Under the pieces are notes generated by a model, which saw nothing but the letters and a program-made list of their open reading frames with translations, was not told the DNA's origin and searched no databases. From the NCBI GenBank assembly GCA_900317155.1, contig ONFO01000009.1, forward strand, positions 124,001 through 188,000: DNA of 64,000 nt. The letters are read 5' to 3'. A program made the translations under genes and the position numbers. The DNA is from an uncultured Bacteroidales bacterium. GTDB taxonomy: Bacteria; Bacteroidota; Bacteroidia; Bacteroidales; F082. Of the stretch, positions 17,710 to 58,792 are shown in pieces. Every line of letters begins with the position of its first letter. Within the stretch, counting starts at the first letter, position 1.

Positions 17710-19623
17710 TCAGATAGATGCAGAACCACTTGCAAAGCTCATGAGAGTAACAGAAAGAGGTTCTTCCGTACCGAAAACAGTTTTAATTTTTCGGCTGCGC
17801 TCGCTCACGGTGGCGTAGGCGCGCTGCATCAAAGCCGCAACATCAGCATCCGAAAGTCCCAGCAGATACAGGCAGCAATAGTCAAGGTCGCCCTTGGTGA
17901 GGTTGGGATAGGCCTTGGCCAAACGGACGGTGAACTGGTTGAAGTGGCGGTCGGCAGCCTCGCGCAACGCCATCACCTGCTCCTTGCCCAAGGCATAGTC
18001 CTGGTATAGCCTGCAGTCCATCTGCGCCTTGAATTGTCCTTCGTTCACCCGCTCCATAATGAGGCGACAGATAGGCTCATCGGTGAACGACACCGCTTGC
18101 GCCTCCTGTTTCGGGGCGCCGTTGCCCGCTTGTTGCCGCATCTGGTCCTTCAGCTCGCGCAGCTCCTGGTTGCTCTTCTTCAGCCTTCCCGACATCGAGG
18201 CTTTCTCCAATCGATGCGCCTCTCGTTCGGCCTCCATTCTCTGGCTCTCCATCCGTCGAGCCTCCTGCACAGCTTCCATCTGTTGGCTTGCCTCGTCGCG
18301 CTGCTGCTTCATCTTGCGCCTATGCAGCAGCCAAGCCAACAGCGCCGCCACCGCAACCAGAACGCTCACCACGACGATCATCCTGTTCCTCCGCAGCCGC
18401 GCCGCCTCCTGCCTTTCGGCCTCGGCTCGCTCTTGCTCCCACTGCAAATGCTGCTGAAACAATTCGTTGAGTTTAGAAACCTGCGCGTTGCTTTCTGCTT
18501 CCGAAACAGCATTTTCCGCTTGAAACATGGCATATCGAGCGGCTTTCAGTGTATCGCCACGGCCTTGGTAAATGTTGCGCAATTTTCCAGCGAAATCCCA
18601 TTTCAACAACACATCATCCGTATTTTCAAACACTCGTGTCAAATAAACCATTGCCGAGTCATATTGGCTGTTTTCAAAATAAATGGAACCGATGGTAAAG
18701 AATCGTGTCAGCCTTTCATCTTCATCTGTAGTTTGTGTGGCCATTCGTTTTAAGTCGCATACCGCTGGCTCTACACCTTTGCCCGAATAGTAATTATACA
18801 ATGCCAATCCTGAAATCAAATCACGATAGGCCAAATTGTTTGTATCGGCTAAATACTTAAATGCCTCATTGAAATAGTATCCGGCACTGTCCATTTGTTG
18901 CAAAATGCTATATTGATTTCCAAGGAGACTCATCAAATTGGCAATACCATTGGCCGATGTAGGTTCAATTTTGCTGAAAACTAAAGAGTTCTTGTAGCAG
19001 ACGATGGCAGGTTCCTGCATAAATTGGCCGGAAAACAATTCACCGAGCCGCCCGTATGTCAACGCCATGAACCTAGGCAGGTGGTTGGGCTGTAGAGACG
19101 TGCCATGGCGCGTCTCAATCCCCGGGAAATGCGTCTCCACCATCTCCAGCGCCTTCAGATACTCCCCGCAAGCCGCCACCACGCTATCCCGTTCATAGAA
19201 TCCCACACCATTAATATAATGTGCCCGCGCCGCCAAAAACGCATCCCGCTCTTGTACGGACACACCGCGTGTGTCCGTTCCATACCCATCCATCCCCACA
19301 ATCGAATCAAAATAATGAACCGCCTTCAGCACCTCTTCGCGGTTGCTCTGCCCATAGTCATTCTTATAAAGCAGCTCCGCCACCAGCACCTGGCAAAAAT
19401 GCCCCTCAAACACATCCATGCTGTCCGCCTCATCACTCCCCGCAAACTCCAACATCACCTTCAGCGCACTATCCGCTTGCTTCCACATCAAACTATCAAT
19501 CCCCTCCAAAGCCTCGTGCGCCAGCCCTTCCCCCTCTGAGAGGGGGTGCCCAACGGGCGGGGGAGTATTACATCCCATCACAAGCACCATCAAAACAATC
19601 CCTATATAAACACGCAGTTTCAC
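17710..19623 (-). CDS. Transmembrane TPR-HTH lipoprotein regulator (paralog C)
   Basis: A 637-residue protein. The N-terminal lipobox is LVMGC (Cys 18). TPR-like helical pairs fill about residues 40-390 (periplasmic), one TM helix spans about 400-420, then a long charged coiled coil (about 420-500). The C-terminal cytoplasmic domain has LTKGDLDYCCLYLLGLSDAD followed by TVSERSRKIK, a LuxR-like helix-turn-helix. The start is GTG (19623); a -7 box ends only 4 bp before it, so the mRNA is probably leaderless. Residues 20-33 (TPPPVGHPLSEGEG) are encoded by a dispersed palindromic repeat. The gene lies between a BspA-like gene and a TonB-receptor-like barrel; the ligand is unknown. Confidence 0.75.
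   Translation of the reverse strand: MKLRVYIGIVLMVLVMGCNTPPPVGHPLSEGEGLAHEALEGIDSLMWKQADSALKVMLEFAGSDEADSMDVFEGHFCQVLVAELLYKNDYGQSNREEVLKAVHYFDSIVGMDGYGTDTRGVSVQERDAFLAARAHYINGVGFYERDSVVAACGEYLKALEMVETHFPGIETRHGTSLQPNHLPRFMALTYGRLGELFSGQFMQEPAIVCYKNSLVFSKIEPTSANGIANLMSLLGNQYSILQQMDSAGYYFNEAFKYLADTNNLAYRDLISGLALYNYYSGKGVEPAVCDLKRMATQTTDEDERLTRFFTIGSIYFENSQYDSAMVYLTRVFENTDDVLLKWDFAGKLRNIYQGRGDTLKAARYAMFQAENAVSEAESNAQVSKLNELFQQHLQWEQERAEAERQEAARLRRNRMIVVVSVLVAVAALLAWLLHRRKMKQQRDEASQQMEAVQEARRMESQRMEAEREAHRLEKASMSGRLKKSNQELRELKDQMRQQAGNGAPKQEAQAVSFTDEPICRLIMERVNEGQFKAQMDCRLYQDYALGKEQVMALREAADRHFNQFTVRLAKAYPNLTKGDLDYCCLYLLGLSDADVAALMQRAYATVSERSRKIKTVFGTEEPLSVTLMSFASGSASI
19528..19566. repeat. Palindromic repeat inside the TPR lipoprotein gene
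   Basis: CCCCCTCTGAGAGGGGG (19530-19546), then GCCCAACGGGC and GGGGGAGT. It matches the intergenic copy at 19683-19716 and is read in frame just after the lipidated Cys codon. Confidence 0.8.
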
Positions 19624-19626
19624 GCC

Positions 19627-19652
19627 GCAAAATTACTCAAAATTTCCTTCAA
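19627..19652 (-). promoter_or_regulatory. Promoter of TPR-HTH paralog C
   Basis: TAATTTTGC (19627-19635) with a TTG at 19650-19652 (spacer 14 bp, short). The predicted transcription start coincides with the GTG start codon. Confidence 0.55.
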
Positions 19653-19682
19653 CCCCCATCGTAATCCCGTTAGCACGCATAA

Positions 19683-19716
19683 CGCTTCCCCCTCTAAGAG
19701 GGGGCAAGGGGGAGTC
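19683..19716. repeat. Palindromic repeat, intergenic copy
   Basis: CCCCCTCTAAGAGGGGG (19688-19704) has 8-bp perfect arms, followed by CAAGGGGGAGT. It lies between the TPR gene and the outer-membrane protein gene. Confidence 0.8.
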
Positions 19717-19777
19717 ACTCCCTAATCCATTTCCCACTCTCCACTTCCATGCCATTGGTCATCATCCTTCCATCCAT

Positions 19778-22408
19778 TCAAATCACCTTTAACCTCACCC
19801 TAAGCATCACACTCCTCGGCCTAATCAGGTAAGCCGAATAATACCCATAAATCCCTGAATAATAGGAATAAATGAAACTGTCGGTGTTGAGGATGTTATT
19901 CACATCAAGGCTAAACTTCACTTTGCGGAAAGTGTAGCCCAGGCTGCAATCCAAGAGCACGAAATTGTCGGTACACTCTTCGGAACGGGTGTGATAGAAC
20001 TCCACCGAGGGCGTGACGGACAAGCCGAAAGGCAAAACCACACTCAGATTGGCGTTGTCGATGAGACTCACAATCGGTTGACTATCATCATTAAAGCCCT
20101 CCAACGAGGAAGTCATCTGGCTAAAACTGCCTTTGTTGTTGAAAAAGATGTAGTCTGTTATTGCGATGCTGGCGGTCAGGTTGGCGTTCCAGCCCTGATT
20201 GTAATAGATGGCCACCTGATTCTGAACCAAATGCGGCGAGCGCCCCAATCCGTAGGAGCATTTCGCGTTGATGTTCAACTTTTTCCAACTGAAGCCCTTG
20301 CCCGCATACAGAGAAACGGACAGGTAATCGCCCCAACTCGGCTGCTCCACGGCATTGATGACCATGGTGTTGCCCTCAAAAGATTGAGCGTACATCACCT
20401 CGTTACGGTAGCGGTTGTAGTTCACCGAGAAGTCACCGAAGGCATATTTCATCACATTCTTGTATGAAAACGTCAGCGATCCGTTGGCACCGTATGTGTC
20501 AGCCAGAGGACAGTCGTAGTGCGACAAAGTTCTGTAATTCTGCAAGATGTAACCCGAATAAAGCGTCCGCAAACTCGGGGTGTTGTTGTAGGTGGCAATC
20601 TTGGTGCTCACTTTCCAGTTATGGCTGAAATCATAACGGAACGAAAGCGAAGGCTGGGACAAAACCTTGATTTGTGGGTCGGAACCGTTGACGATGCGGT
20701 CGTCCAATTGCAGGTAACGCAACTGCACAGGCACCATTAGCGTCACATTCACGCGCCGACGGTCGTAAGTGAAATAGGCGCCTGCGGCAGGTTGGTACTT
20801 GTGCCAACGGATTTCGTTATCGAACTGGTTTTCTGCAAACTGAAGAGTCAAACCTTCTGCATTTTGCCCTATGAGGCTCGAATTAAGCGCTTGCTCCTCC
20901 ATACTAAAATTGAAATAAGGCATAATGCGCAGCCTTTTCCAAACCACGCTGGTAAGAAATCGAAGGAAATTCTCGCTCTTAAAGGACTGAAAAACTATGT
21001 TTTGTAAAGTCATAGGGTAATCTTCACCGTCGTTGAGGACTTCTGGGAAACAACCTGGCGCGACTTGCAATACGTAGGGCAAAGTACCATAACTCGTTGT
21101 GGAATTGAACTCTATGCCACTTTCTGGGTCGCGGCGGCTCTTGCGAATCCAGTGGATGTTGGCCTTGGCGCACAGCGACTGGTAGTTTTCCTCCTGCCGA
21201 ATCAGTTCGCCATTGTCTACCAAGCCCTCGCCCCAGTTGCGGTGCCCCGATGCGGTGAGGCTGATTGTCAGATAGTCCAAGTCTTTGTTGAGATTGTAGT
21301 TGATGCTTCCTTCGAGCATTCTGGCCGTTTCCAACGACTGCATCCGCTCAACGAGGTTGAGCGTGTCGTCGGGAAGGAGATAAAGCGTATGCGACTTGCT
21401 CGATTTGCGGTTGCGGTCGCTGCCAACAAGGAGGTTAAACGAGAGATCTGCGTCGTTTTTCAGTTTGTGCAGGCTGTTGAGGGTAATCCCTTGCGAGCGG
21501 TTCAACGTGTGCCGCACTCCAGAAATGCCCGGAGCGCTCGGCTCGACCATCGAGGCCATCGGATAGACCGTGACATTCTCGTTGTCAACAAGGTTGATGC
21601 CGGCATTATTGGCCTTCAAGGTGCCTAGAAACTGATTGCGTTTTGCAAAATACATCCCTGTAAGGCTGCCTTCGTATTGCAAACTATCGGCCCAACCCAC
21701 GCCAAGGTCGGCCATCAAGGCGAAGGTGCCTTTGGCGTTTTCCTTCAACTTGATGTTGAGGGCCACATTGTCCGAGAACTGGATGTTTTGCAGCGCCCTC
21801 ACCTCCTGATGGTTCTCCATCACCTGCACCGAGGCCACATCGGAAGCGGCAATGCTGGTGGTGGCGAGGTTGTAGCGGCCTTGCAGCATGTCCATGTTCT
21901 CGATGTAGAACTTCGAGATGGGCTTGCCCTTGTATTCCACCTTGCCGTCGTCCTTCACCTCGATGCCTGGCATCTTCTTCAGCACGTCGGCGATGACGAG
22001 GTCGGTGGTGTCGCGGAAGGCGTCCACGACATAATTCACCGTGTCGTTGCCACCCCAAATCTTCTCCGACTTCACGCTCACTTCTTTCAGTTGCAATGCC
22101 TCTTCCTGCACCGTGAAATCGACAGTCTGTGTCTTGTTTTCCACCTCCTTGAACTGTCGCTTCAGGTTGAAGCCATAAACCGCAATGAGCAGTTTGGCTT
22201 CTTCGCTTTGCGTAACCAACTGATAATGACCTTTCTCATCCGTAAAGGTATAGGCCATCGGCAGGCTGTCCGTCACGCGCAACAACATCACCGAGGCATT
22301 ATAAACGGGTTGTTTCTTCTCGTTGTGTACCTCGCCGGAAATGGTCGTTTGGGCGAAGGCTTGAACGCCGAAGAAAATACTAATTATCAGAAAAACAAGC
22401 CGTTTCAT
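19778..22408 (-). CDS. TonB-receptor-like outer-membrane protein with carboxypeptidase-regulatory N-domain
   Basis: An 876-residue protein with signal peptide (VQAFAQ). Residues about 22-100 form a CarboxypepD-reg (CNA-B-like) domain (TISGEVHNEKKQPVYNASV). A plug-like domain follows (VIADVLKKMPGIEVKDDG, YKGKPISKFYIENMDML), then a long beta-barrel typical of the outer-membrane beta-barrel family related to TonB receptors. No SusD partner is present; instead two GLPGLI genes precede it (5-bp and 21-bp gaps), the usual neighbours of this subfamily. Substrate unknown; metal or peptide handling has been suggested for such loci but is not visible here. Confidence 0.85.
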   Translation of the reverse strand: MKRLVFLIISIFFGVQAFAQTTISGEVHNEKKQPVYNASVMLLRVTDSLPMAYTFTDEKGHYQLVTQSEEAKLLIAVYGFNLKRQFKEVENKTQTVDFTVQEEALQLKEVSVKSEKIWGGNDTVNYVVDAFRDTTDLVIADVLKKMPGIEVKDDGKVEYKGKPISKFYIENMDMLQGRYNLATTSIAASDVASVQVMENHQEVRALQNIQFSDNVALNIKLKENAKGTFALMADLGVGWADSLQYEGSLTGMYFAKRNQFLGTLKANNAGINLVDNENVTVYPMASMVEPSAPGISGVRHTLNRSQGITLNSLHKLKNDADLSFNLLVGSDRNRKSSKSHTLYLLPDDTLNLVERMQSLETARMLEGSINYNLNKDLDYLTISLTASGHRNWGEGLVDNGELIRQEENYQSLCAKANIHWIRKSRRDPESGIEFNSTTSYGTLPYVLQVAPGCFPEVLNDGEDYPMTLQNIVFQSFKSENFLRFLTSVVWKRLRIMPYFNFSMEEQALNSSLIGQNAEGLTLQFAENQFDNEIRWHKYQPAAGAYFTYDRRRVNVTLMVPVQLRYLQLDDRIVNGSDPQIKVLSQPSLSFRYDFSHNWKVSTKIATYNNTPSLRTLYSGYILQNYRTLSHYDCPLADTYGANGSLTFSYKNVMKYAFGDFSVNYNRYRNEVMYAQSFEGNTMVINAVEQPSWGDYLSVSLYAGKGFSWKKLNINAKCSYGLGRSPHLVQNQVAIYYNQGWNANLTASIAITDYIFFNNKGSFSQMTSSLEGFNDDSQPIVSLIDNANLSVVLPFGLSVTPSVEFYHTRSEECTDNFVLLDCSLGYTFRKVKFSLDVNNILNTDSFIYSYYSGIYGYYSAYLIRPRSVMLRVRLKVI

Positions 22409-47436: not shown

Positions 47437-47469
47437 GCAAAAATACCGTATTTTCGGCTTCACCATCAA
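47437..47469 (-). promoter_or_regulatory. Promoter of the barrel-S41 operon
   Basis: TATTTTTGC (47437-47445), TTG at 47467-47469 (21-bp spacer). Divergent from metG. Confidence 0.75.
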
Positions 47470-47505
47470 CAATTCAACAAATAAACAAGTCAACAATCAA
47501 CAAAT
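47466..47505 (+). repeat. CAACAATTCAAC-type leader tract before metG
   Basis: TCAACAATTCAACAAATAAA and similar units on the coding strand; part of a family of A/C-rich, G-free tracts upstream of several genes. Confidence 0.6.
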
Positions 47506-50636: not shown

Positions 50637-51506
50637 TCACAGGCCAATTTCTATGAAACGCCCGTTCTTGAAATTGACTACGCTTCGATAGCCCGCTTGC
50701 TTCAAGGCTTCTTCGGCGGCAGAAAATTCGAGGGTGATTTCGCTGAAATGATGCGCATCAGCAGAGATGATGGCAGGAACGCCCATCTTGCAGGCTTCCT
50801 CCATCAGCCACGGCGAGGGATAGAAGCCATTGTAGCGTTTCTTGTAGATGCCGCGCGTGTTGATTTCCATTACCAGGCCTTTCTCGCGGATGAGATCGAG
50901 AGTCTCAAGAGCTAGTTTGCGATACCAAGGTTCGTCTTCATGGAAATAGCGATCGCGGTTGTGCATCTTAATTTTGTCGAAGTGGGCAATGATGTCGAAC
51001 TGCTCGTTTTCAATCATTTCGTTCGACTGTTCGAAAAATCTACGCACGGCGCGGCGGATATCGCCATTGAAGAACTTTTGCAAGCCTTCGTCATAAACTT
51101 CCCACTTGGGACCGTCAATGAACCAGATATTTTCTGAAAGTGCCGGCCCTTCGACAGGCTCAGGGACCTTATCGACAACAAGATGCACCCCACCAATCAG
51201 ATAATCAAGGTGATACCTCTCTTTGGTTACGGCAAAAGGCTCGGAAACGCCCGTGAGATAATCGGCCTCCAAACCGCAATACAGGTCGATTTTATCCTTG
51301 AATTCCGCTTTCAGTTGGGCAATTTCCGCCACATAACGCGGCATATCGGCCTGCTTGACGGAAAAATTATTGTCGAATGGCAAAGGGCTATGCTCCGAAA
51401 AGCCCAAGGTCGTCAAGCCCTGACGGACAGCCTCTTCCACGATTTCGCGCGGTTGCGACTTGCCGTCGGAATAAATGCTATGAGTGTGTAGGTTATAGTT
51501 TTGCAT
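50637..51506 (-). CDS. PHP-domain phosphatase (histidinol-phosphatase-like)
   Basis: A 289-residue metal-dependent hydrolase of the PHP superfamily. Motif I is NLHTHSIYSDG (residues 5-14), GFSEHSPLPF follows (35-44), then the YCGLEADY and IAHFDKIKMHNRD metal ligands, and ISADAHHFSE near the C-terminus. It resembles HisK-type histidinol-phosphate phosphatases. Residues 113-122 (KVPEPVEGPA) are encoded by a dispersed repeat (51145-51168) common in Bacteroidetes intergenic DNA, inserted in a loop after GGVHLVVD. It is convergent with purC. Confidence 0.88.
   Translation of the reverse strand: MQNYNLHTHSIYSDGKSQPREIVEEAVRQGLTTLGFSEHSPLPFDNNFSVKQADMPRYVAEIAQLKAEFKDKIDLYCGLEADYLTGVSEPFAVTKERYHLDYLIGGVHLVVDKVPEPVEGPALSENIWFIDGPKWEVYDEGLQKFFNGDIRRAVRRFFEQSNEMIENEQFDIIAHFDKIKMHNRDRYFHEDEPWYRKLALETLDLIREKGLVMEINTRGIYKKRYNGFYPSPWLMEEACKMGVPAIISADAHHFSEITLEFSAAEEALKQAGYRSVVNFKNGRFIEIGL
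51145..51168. repeat. Dispersed repeat (PEPVEG type) inside the PHP gene
   Basis: GGCCCTTCGACAGGCTCAGG then GACC; related copies at 53491-53512 and 58351-58416. It is read in frame as VPEPVEGP. Confidence 0.85.
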
Positions 51507-58416: not shown

Positions 58417-58420
58417 CTCC

Positions 58421-58453
58421 GTTTCAACAATTCAACAATCAACAATTCAACAA
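58421..58453 (+). repeat. CAACAATTCAAC-type leader tract before mazG
   Basis: CAACAATTCAACAATCAACA and continuation run directly into the ATG of mazG. Confidence 0.7.
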
Positions 58454-58792
58454 ATGTCTATCAAAGAAGCCCAAACCGCCGTTGACGAATGGATAAAGAC
58501 TTACGGCGTGCGTTATTTCAGCGAATTGACCAACATGGCACTGCTGACCGAGGAAGTCGGCGAGTTGGCCCGCATCATCGCCCGCACCTATGGCGACCAA
58601 TCGTTCAAAGAATCAGACAAAAACCGCAATATGGCCGATGAAATGGCCGACATCCTCTGGGTGTTGCTCTGCCTAGCCAACCAAACCGGCGTCGACCTCA
58701 CAGAAGCCTTCGCCAAGAACATGGAGAAGAAGACCATGCGCGACAGGGAACGCCATATCCATAACGACAAACTGCGTGACCCCATCGCATAA
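58454..58792 (+). CDS. MazG-type nucleotide pyrophosphohydrolase
   Basis: A 112-residue all-helical NTP pyrophosphatase of the MazG-like/RS21-C6 group. The metal-binding signature is present: LLTEEVGELARII (ExxE) and ADEMADILWVLLCLANQTGV (ExxD). Such small enzymes cleave dCTP or modified nucleotides. The start at 58454 follows an A/C-rich leader, and the shorter form agrees with the family length. It is convergent with glnS, which shares the terminator. Confidence 0.92.
   Translation: MSIKEAQTAVDEWIKTYGVRYFSELTNMALLTEEVGELARIIARTYGDQSFKESDKNRNMADEMADILWVLLCLANQTGVDLTEAFAKNMEKKTMRDRERHIHNDKLRDPIA

Follow-up and report, generated by a model that had tools for sequence, protein, structure and literature searches.

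The gene at 17710-19623 lies on the minus strand of the window, the whole stretch of 64,000 nucleotides that was analysed, and encodes a 637-residue lipoprotein. Its membrane segment, near residue 415, and its lipobox were judged by eye. The product matches Pfam TPR_1 below the cut-off and NCBIfam NF053779 with 43 bits against a cut-off of 940; its resemblance to the BT3442 family is distant. The features discussed below are the following.

17710-19623, minus strand: lipoprotein gene with GTG start, signal peptide, Cys18, linker, TPR region, membrane segment and C-terminal part (637 aa)
19092-19116, plus strand: element B, GTAG and a GAGACG...CGTCTC palindrome, read in frame as residues IETRHGTSL within the TPR region of 17710-19623
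19501-19572, minus strand: linker from Cys18 to the conserved IDSLMW motif, 17-53 residues in relatives, with A, B, C or no repeat
19528-19567, minus strand: copy of element A inside the gene, composed of ACTCCCCC, inner hairpin GCCCGTTGGGC, A, CCCCCTCTCAGAGGGGG and AA
19530-19546, no strand assigned: perfect palindrome of the copy inside the lipoprotein gene, from a pattern search
19669-19684, plus strand: GTTAGCACGCATAACG, a second short repeat adjoining the intergenic copy of A, flanks judged by eye
19685-19715, minus strand: short intergenic copy of A, upstream of the lipoprotein gene in a gap of 154 nt; TTG replaces the inner hairpin
51148-51161, minus strand: element C, coding in frame for residues VPEPVEGP of the PHP-type gene 50637-51506

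The palindrome CCCCCTCT-N-AGAGGGGG, which a sequence-only reading had reported at 19530-19546 and 19688-19704, is perfect at both places; a search allowing up to three mismatches matched it nowhere else in the window, and shuffles give a chance expectation of 0.09. As that reading stated, the 19530-19546 copy on the minus strand encodes TPPPVGHPLSEGEG, residues 20-33 behind Cys18 in ORF 17710-19623, and the match of the flanks (ACTCCCCC and GGGGGAAG) is also correct. The real unit of A is longer than the palindrome first noted: it spans about 40 nt and contains two hairpins. Its minus-strand reading is ACTCCCCC, a variable inner hairpin, A and CCCCCTCTNAGAGGGGG, often followed by AAG or ACG. 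The inner hairpin, placed between ACTCCCCC and the palindrome, keeps a stem of at least 4 bp in 63 of 66 copies through 22 different sequences, compared to 6.8% after shuffling. Behind the A stem AAG is found in 35, ACG in 21 and other triplets in 75 of the 131 rows of our collection (defined below), and a CGTC tag is not fixed, with CTTC or CGTC present in a minority of these rows. Most copies are single and are unremarkable as DNA folds (z -1.84 and -2.10). Seven distinct units of 91-139 nt are inverted pairs of A, as in REPINs; one of them gives fold z values of -10.6 and -11.0 for its two strands, and a whole inverted unit is found in the PolA frame of genome G161. The repeat finder did not include A among its 20 largest direct families and 25 longest inverted pairs, and an Rfam search of 19000-20000 with E values up to 1 matched no known structured RNA.

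Further genomic copies, expected if the palindrome is a dispersed repeat, are present in the window's own genome and across the genus. The own genome (3.80 Mb in 65 contigs) has six exact A palindromes and one with a single mismatch, versus none in the control; one reversed-pattern control was uninformative because a palindromic pattern reads identically backwards (5 versus 5). Within this ruminant-gut genus of Bacteroidales, the exact A 18-mer is present in 38 of the 80 genomes, with a control of 0. A scan of 84,980 named species genomes yielded 53 stretches, mostly from uncultured Bacteroidia or Bacteroidales MAGs, many of them labelled as coming from rumen (RUG) or another ruminant gut site, while three are on one Sphingobacteriales chromosome, CP096135.1. 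These three (L244, L265, L289) carry the A pattern outside the order Bacteroidales. Listed places of A were merged if their context of 30 nt on each side was identical, leaving 131 rows, a few of them from G028, which is outside the set of 80 genomes; they correspond to 127 distinct palindromes, four being counted on both strands. The copy in the window gene shares 40 identical nt with an intergenic copy on contig C62 of the same genome (L010), and 55 with a related lipoprotein gene in genome G110. By eye, GTTAGCACGCATAACG adjoins A copies on contigs C62 and C42 as well, and isolated A copies are also found between unrelated genes. That such palindromes are chance products of GC-rich DNA or assembly artefacts is highly improbable: all the relatives are draft assemblies, mostly MAGs, and the own genome is itself in 65 contigs, but the shuffle and reversed-pattern controls are near 0, which rules out a chance origin, many independent genomes hold the repeat, and the reading frames that cross it stay open through long conserved genes.

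Placed in ORFs of at least 180 aa are 71 of the 131 A rows, a figure to be read knowing that many of these ORFs are unproven or have A in a doubtful 5' extension. Hosts were recognised by a Pfam or NCBIfam match of a representative, otherwise by BLAST clustering. The 47 rows in recognised hosts fall in the lipoprotein family (17), PolA (13), DUF3987/PriCT_2 proteins (8), Rho (2), PglX (2), U32 (2), BrxL (1), SufS (1) and a protein kinase (1). Four strand and frame combinations are used among them, sense 1 and 2 and antisense 0 and 1, so that identical DNA encodes HPLSEGE, TPSQRGT/PSERG or PPLRGGG depending on the protein. This use of four combinations in unrelated proteins indicates that A recurs as DNA and not as a peptide. 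The reverse, a peptide conserved with different codons as expected of a proline/glycine-rich linker motif that is merely read back as a DNA repeat, has in its favour that several related lipoproteins have TPPPVGHPLSEGEG or TPPGPLSEGE in common. The shared peptide comes, however, with identical DNA (the 55 nt in common with G110), and A yields the three other peptides elsewhere besides being intergenic; frame usage rules this explanation out, and we give it hardly any credence. Two of the host types are BREX defence genes, PglX (L152, L115) and BrxL (L054), and in PglX the A copy lies directly behind a copy of C.

The same protein sites hold different repeats in different genomes. We compared 30 lipoprotein loci picked by similarity alone, 29 of which have the N-terminus: the linker carries A in six, B (GAGACG...CGTCTC) in four, C (CCTGAGCTTGTCGAAGG, with a substitution in two cases) in nine and no repeat in ten. 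Alternation is found even within the own genome, where nine lipoprotein matches were counted and seven fetched; the six with an N-terminus include one with A, three with C, one with a degenerate B and one with no repeat. A tree was built from the mature portion of 56 lipoprotein genes, a set in part selected for its A copies. It requires no fewer than 25 changes of repeat type; shuffles give 29.9 and come down to 25 in 2 of 200, so that repeat type clusters weakly on the tree. A further repeat, CTCACCCCGACCCTCTCC..., read SPRPSPGGEG, is in frame between or beside A units in the lipoprotein linkers of L046, L075, L157 and L056.

In the best 30 of the 77 genomes with a PolA match, the PolA linker has A in 15, C together with E in six, E in two, E reversed in one and no repeat in six, one of the latter (L351) resembling a decayed E. 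The PolA tree gives 14 changes of repeat type versus 13.8 in shuffles, with no clustering; this is a quick tree in which 6 of 27 inner branches are starred, and the starred ones alone force four changes for A. The SufS set had 16 chosen genomes, 15 of which matched and 14 of which are shown. Their SufS loop has A reversed in two, an A-like repeat in two, B in two, E reversed in one, a simple repeat in five and none in two. The simple repeat is a tandem ACTCTCA (L355, L357, L358, L359, L362) that occupies the place where other genomes hold palindromes. There is no repeat in the window genome (G000) and G137 and there is A in G104 and G161, at 88-92% protein identity, the loop being rewritten between them.

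The comparison of relatives gives the in-frame accommodation of A a less simple form than a clean insertion. The sequence-only reading had looked to orthologues that are collinear with the window protein and lack only residues 20-33. Element-free linkers exist and have 17-23 residues, compared to 24 in the window gene, so that the linker looks rewritten rather than simply enlarged. Among the relatives compared none was empty at residues 20-33 while having the same signal peptide, and the gene bodies closest to the window lipoprotein carry a different one. The TPR lipoprotein family, with 9-13 matches in many genomes, swaps 5' modules, as seen for instance in L019/L021 and L016/L017. Behind IDSLMW, L019 (G083) and L021 (G104) are identical at 53 of 60, 58 of 60, 114 of 120, 230 of 240 and 356 of 360 positions; their signal peptides agree at 28 of 66 positions and their upstream regions at 32-36 of 100. 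Elsewhere among the eight compared, discordant pairs are less clear-cut.

Near-identical bodies with different 5' modules imply that recombination between paralogues, and not fresh insertion, explains part of the repeat switching in lipoproteins. It is conceivable, if somewhat less probable than the contrary, that the repeats as a whole spread mainly by homologous recombination or gene conversion among paralogues and strains instead of by transposition, riding on lipoprotein 5' modules. The L019/L021 pair, with its unlike signal peptide and upstream DNA, and the fact that signal-peptide type goes with repeat type in the lipoproteins agree with such a route. PolA, on the other hand, switches likewise and is single-copy in most genomes, so that module exchange cannot explain its switching, and the isolated copies between unrelated genes also speak against spread by recombination.

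Element B, unrelated to A, is a second palindromic repeat in frame in the window lipoprotein gene. At 19092-19116 this gene is a net 7 codons longer than L025, L220, L027, L028, L228 and L026. Other relatives have different versions of B at the site (GAGACGCGCCATGGCACGTCTC, GAGACGGTGTGCACACCGTCTC, GAGACGCAAGATTTTGCGTCTC; decayed in G104), and the versions are also dispersed in the own genome. The arms at this site, aligned in eight rows, pair in 87.5% of cells versus 73.2 after shuffling. Their covariation score is 0.409 versus 0.129 in shuffles (0 of 500) and at most 0.143 in slid versions, values inflated by the relatedness of the rows. Five measures were taken, and those based on pairs changed on both sides and on pair types do not exceed the shuffles. 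The arms of B clearly change together, be it through compensation or through replacement by another copy of B. The element is present in 66 of the 80 genus genomes (control 0) and carries a GTAG tag, the window copy starting with GTAG and several relatives reading GTAGAGACG. Element C occurs at 38 places in the own genome (control 0), and the PHP gene named earlier as a case of the same kind does hold it in frame at 51148-51161. Several E copies in PolA read CGTCATTGCGAGGAACGAAGCAATCCAG, with a CGTC tag, a stem starting with AT, a CCA tail and, by eye, a 5-bp stem, compared to 8-9 bp in passages of Di Nocera et al. 2013 (PMC3733652).

RAYT genes are found next to some of these repeats. The one of the own genome (G000 contig C23, L015:1108-1857) scores 83.7 bits to NF047646, for a cut-off of 80, and is surrounded by three copies of palindrome D, which read CCTGCAATCGGCCCGATTGCAGG or a variant of it; one copy is translated in frame close to the C-terminus of the RAYT itself. 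D is found at four RAYT loci, in the own genome and three others. Exact or variant B lies on both sides of the RAYT-like genes L313, L314 and L315 and beside and/or inside L311, L318 and L321; the scores of these genes stay under the cut-off of NF047646. At L312, B-like hairpins stand on either side. Besides the flanking copies, B is inside the matched region of L311, L313, L315, L318 and L321. Since they adjoin RAYT genes, B and D look like RAYT-borne REPs and were likely moved by such enzymes, while no RAYT is linked to A. A RAYT as mover of A was looked for and not found: A is absent from the surroundings of all 30 RAYT loci, and BLAST detected no Y1-like ORF in 97 A loci; as positive control, the same search recovers all 33 Y1 loci from the proteins of other loci. 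The in-frame accommodation that the sequence-only reading ascribed to a "selfish or structural" repeat holds for A, but "selfish" is not supported for it, no transposase lying nearby.

We favour as probable, with good confidence, the interpretation that A, in frame behind the lipid-anchored Cys, is one case of a genus-wide process in which REP-type palindromes are tolerated at protein linkers and loops and turned over there. Unrelated palindrome families of this type, A, B, C, E and also D around RAYT, are spread through the genomes of the genus, and selection would let copies in genes persist solely at linkers or surface loops that accept whatever peptide the frame yields, the added residues being presumably neutral. 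Such tolerant sites may be rewritten repeatedly as repeats arrive, duplicate, decay and give way to other families. B and D are likely moved by RAYT-type Y1 transposases acting on single-stranded hairpins. A may have been moved by a RAYT working in trans, or its copies may have recombined and converted one another. The main claim of the sequence-only reading, that a dispersed DNA repeat is accommodated in frame in a lipoprotein linker as are the Rickettsia palindromic elements, is well supported by these observations.

Tolerance may be only part of the account. By a rough estimate, PolA linkers contain about 1,500 exact A palindromes per Mb, lipoprotein linkers about 300 and noncoding DNA 2-5. 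These figures assume a noncoding share of 8-20%, about nine homologues a genome and linkers of 75-105 nt, include inherited copies more than once, and were computed with 12 PolA palindromes and 81 rows outside recognised hosts, for which the exact numbers are 13 and 80. Neutral tolerance alone is no obvious explanation of this excess of A in PolA and lipoprotein linkers over the rough noncoding estimate. The linkers might be preferred targets to which resident hairpins attract others, or the repeats might confer a benefit as an mRNA hairpin behind the signal peptide, an adjustable linker or a foothold for recombination. The stacking of repeats at one site, with two to three A units in lipoproteins, C and E in PolA and C and A in PglX, and the presence of three repeat families at one linker point the same way. 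The repeat-free genes, 6 of 30 for PolA and 10 of 29 for the lipoproteins, show that no repeat is required at these sites and count against targeting or benefit, both of which we regard as rather doubtful additions to tolerance. The density excess, rough as it is, gives a reason to test targeting or selection and is not a proof. A bolder version, equally tentative and in our judgement unlikely, is that the linkers behind the lipoprotein Cys and between the PolA nuclease domains and the surface loop of SufS are preferred ports for palindromic mobile DNA, where unrelated REP families compete for a codon position and where their arrival and turnover outpace those in neutral noncoding DNA by far. 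Resident hairpins would then serve as targets for incoming elements, or a hairpin would be useful at that position of the gene; if this is true, bacterial genes have reusable insertion slots.

The interpretation that we favour, tolerance and turnover, finds partial parallels in known systems. Passages of Di Nocera et al. 2013 (PMC3733652) describe intragenic REPs, tagged with GTAG or CGTC, in ORFs of many species, DNA polymerase I included, suggest that flexible linkers and loops tolerate them, and report CGTC REPs from Bacteroidetes without a dedicated transposase. B carries GTAG and E starts with CGTC, the tag of REPs of RPE-4/RPE-6 type, while A differs by its two hairpins and its lack of a consistent tag. 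For one gene, Xanthomonas recB, the passages mention different REPs at roughly one position, whereas the same-site alternation described here spans dozens of genomes and three proteins. Rickettsia palindromic elements, cited within the same paper as in-frame insertions in ORFs, are likewise short, dispersed palindromic repeats that functional genes accommodate in frame, with protein surfaces or linkers as the tolerant places. They belong to another host phylum and have other sequences, and here several unrelated families alternate at one site. Likeness to RAYT/REP systems and REPINs lies in the placement of B and D beside or inside RAYT-like genes and in the inverted A pairs of 91-139 nt; differences are that A has no linked RAYT, that copy numbers are moderate and that intragenic use is frequent. 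The inverted-pair form of A is also akin to bacterial MITEs in having long terminal inverted repeats and no coding capacity. PARCELs, according to passages of PMC2996958, are apparently mobile protein-coding DNA with dyad symmetry, found in lipoproteins; they are tandem 25-residue motifs with a conserved amphipathic pattern, unlike the present repeats, which conserve no protein pattern, and A does not fit as a PARCEL.

Searches of an open-licence library listed no paper whose title or abstract opening describes these elements in this genus, or same-site alternation of unrelated repeats apart from one sentence on recB, in the passages of PMC3733652. Element A, the host genus and the way in which unrelated repeat families turn over at a single codon position are new; intragenic REPs were already known. 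Outside Rickettsia, in free-living gut bacteria, apparently mobile palindromes would thus supply new peptide to conserved proteins, PolA and SufS included. Because different repeats are present at the same codon position in many close relatives, whether they are tolerated, targeted or useful is a directly testable question. Annotators and phylogeneticists should be aware that identical HPLSEGE, PSQRG, PPLRGG or ELVEGPT peptides in unrelated proteins can be DNA repeats and not a sign of homology. Related repeats of the CAACAATTCAACA type are also found between genes of the window, at 1697-1737, 47447-47502 and 58420-58460.
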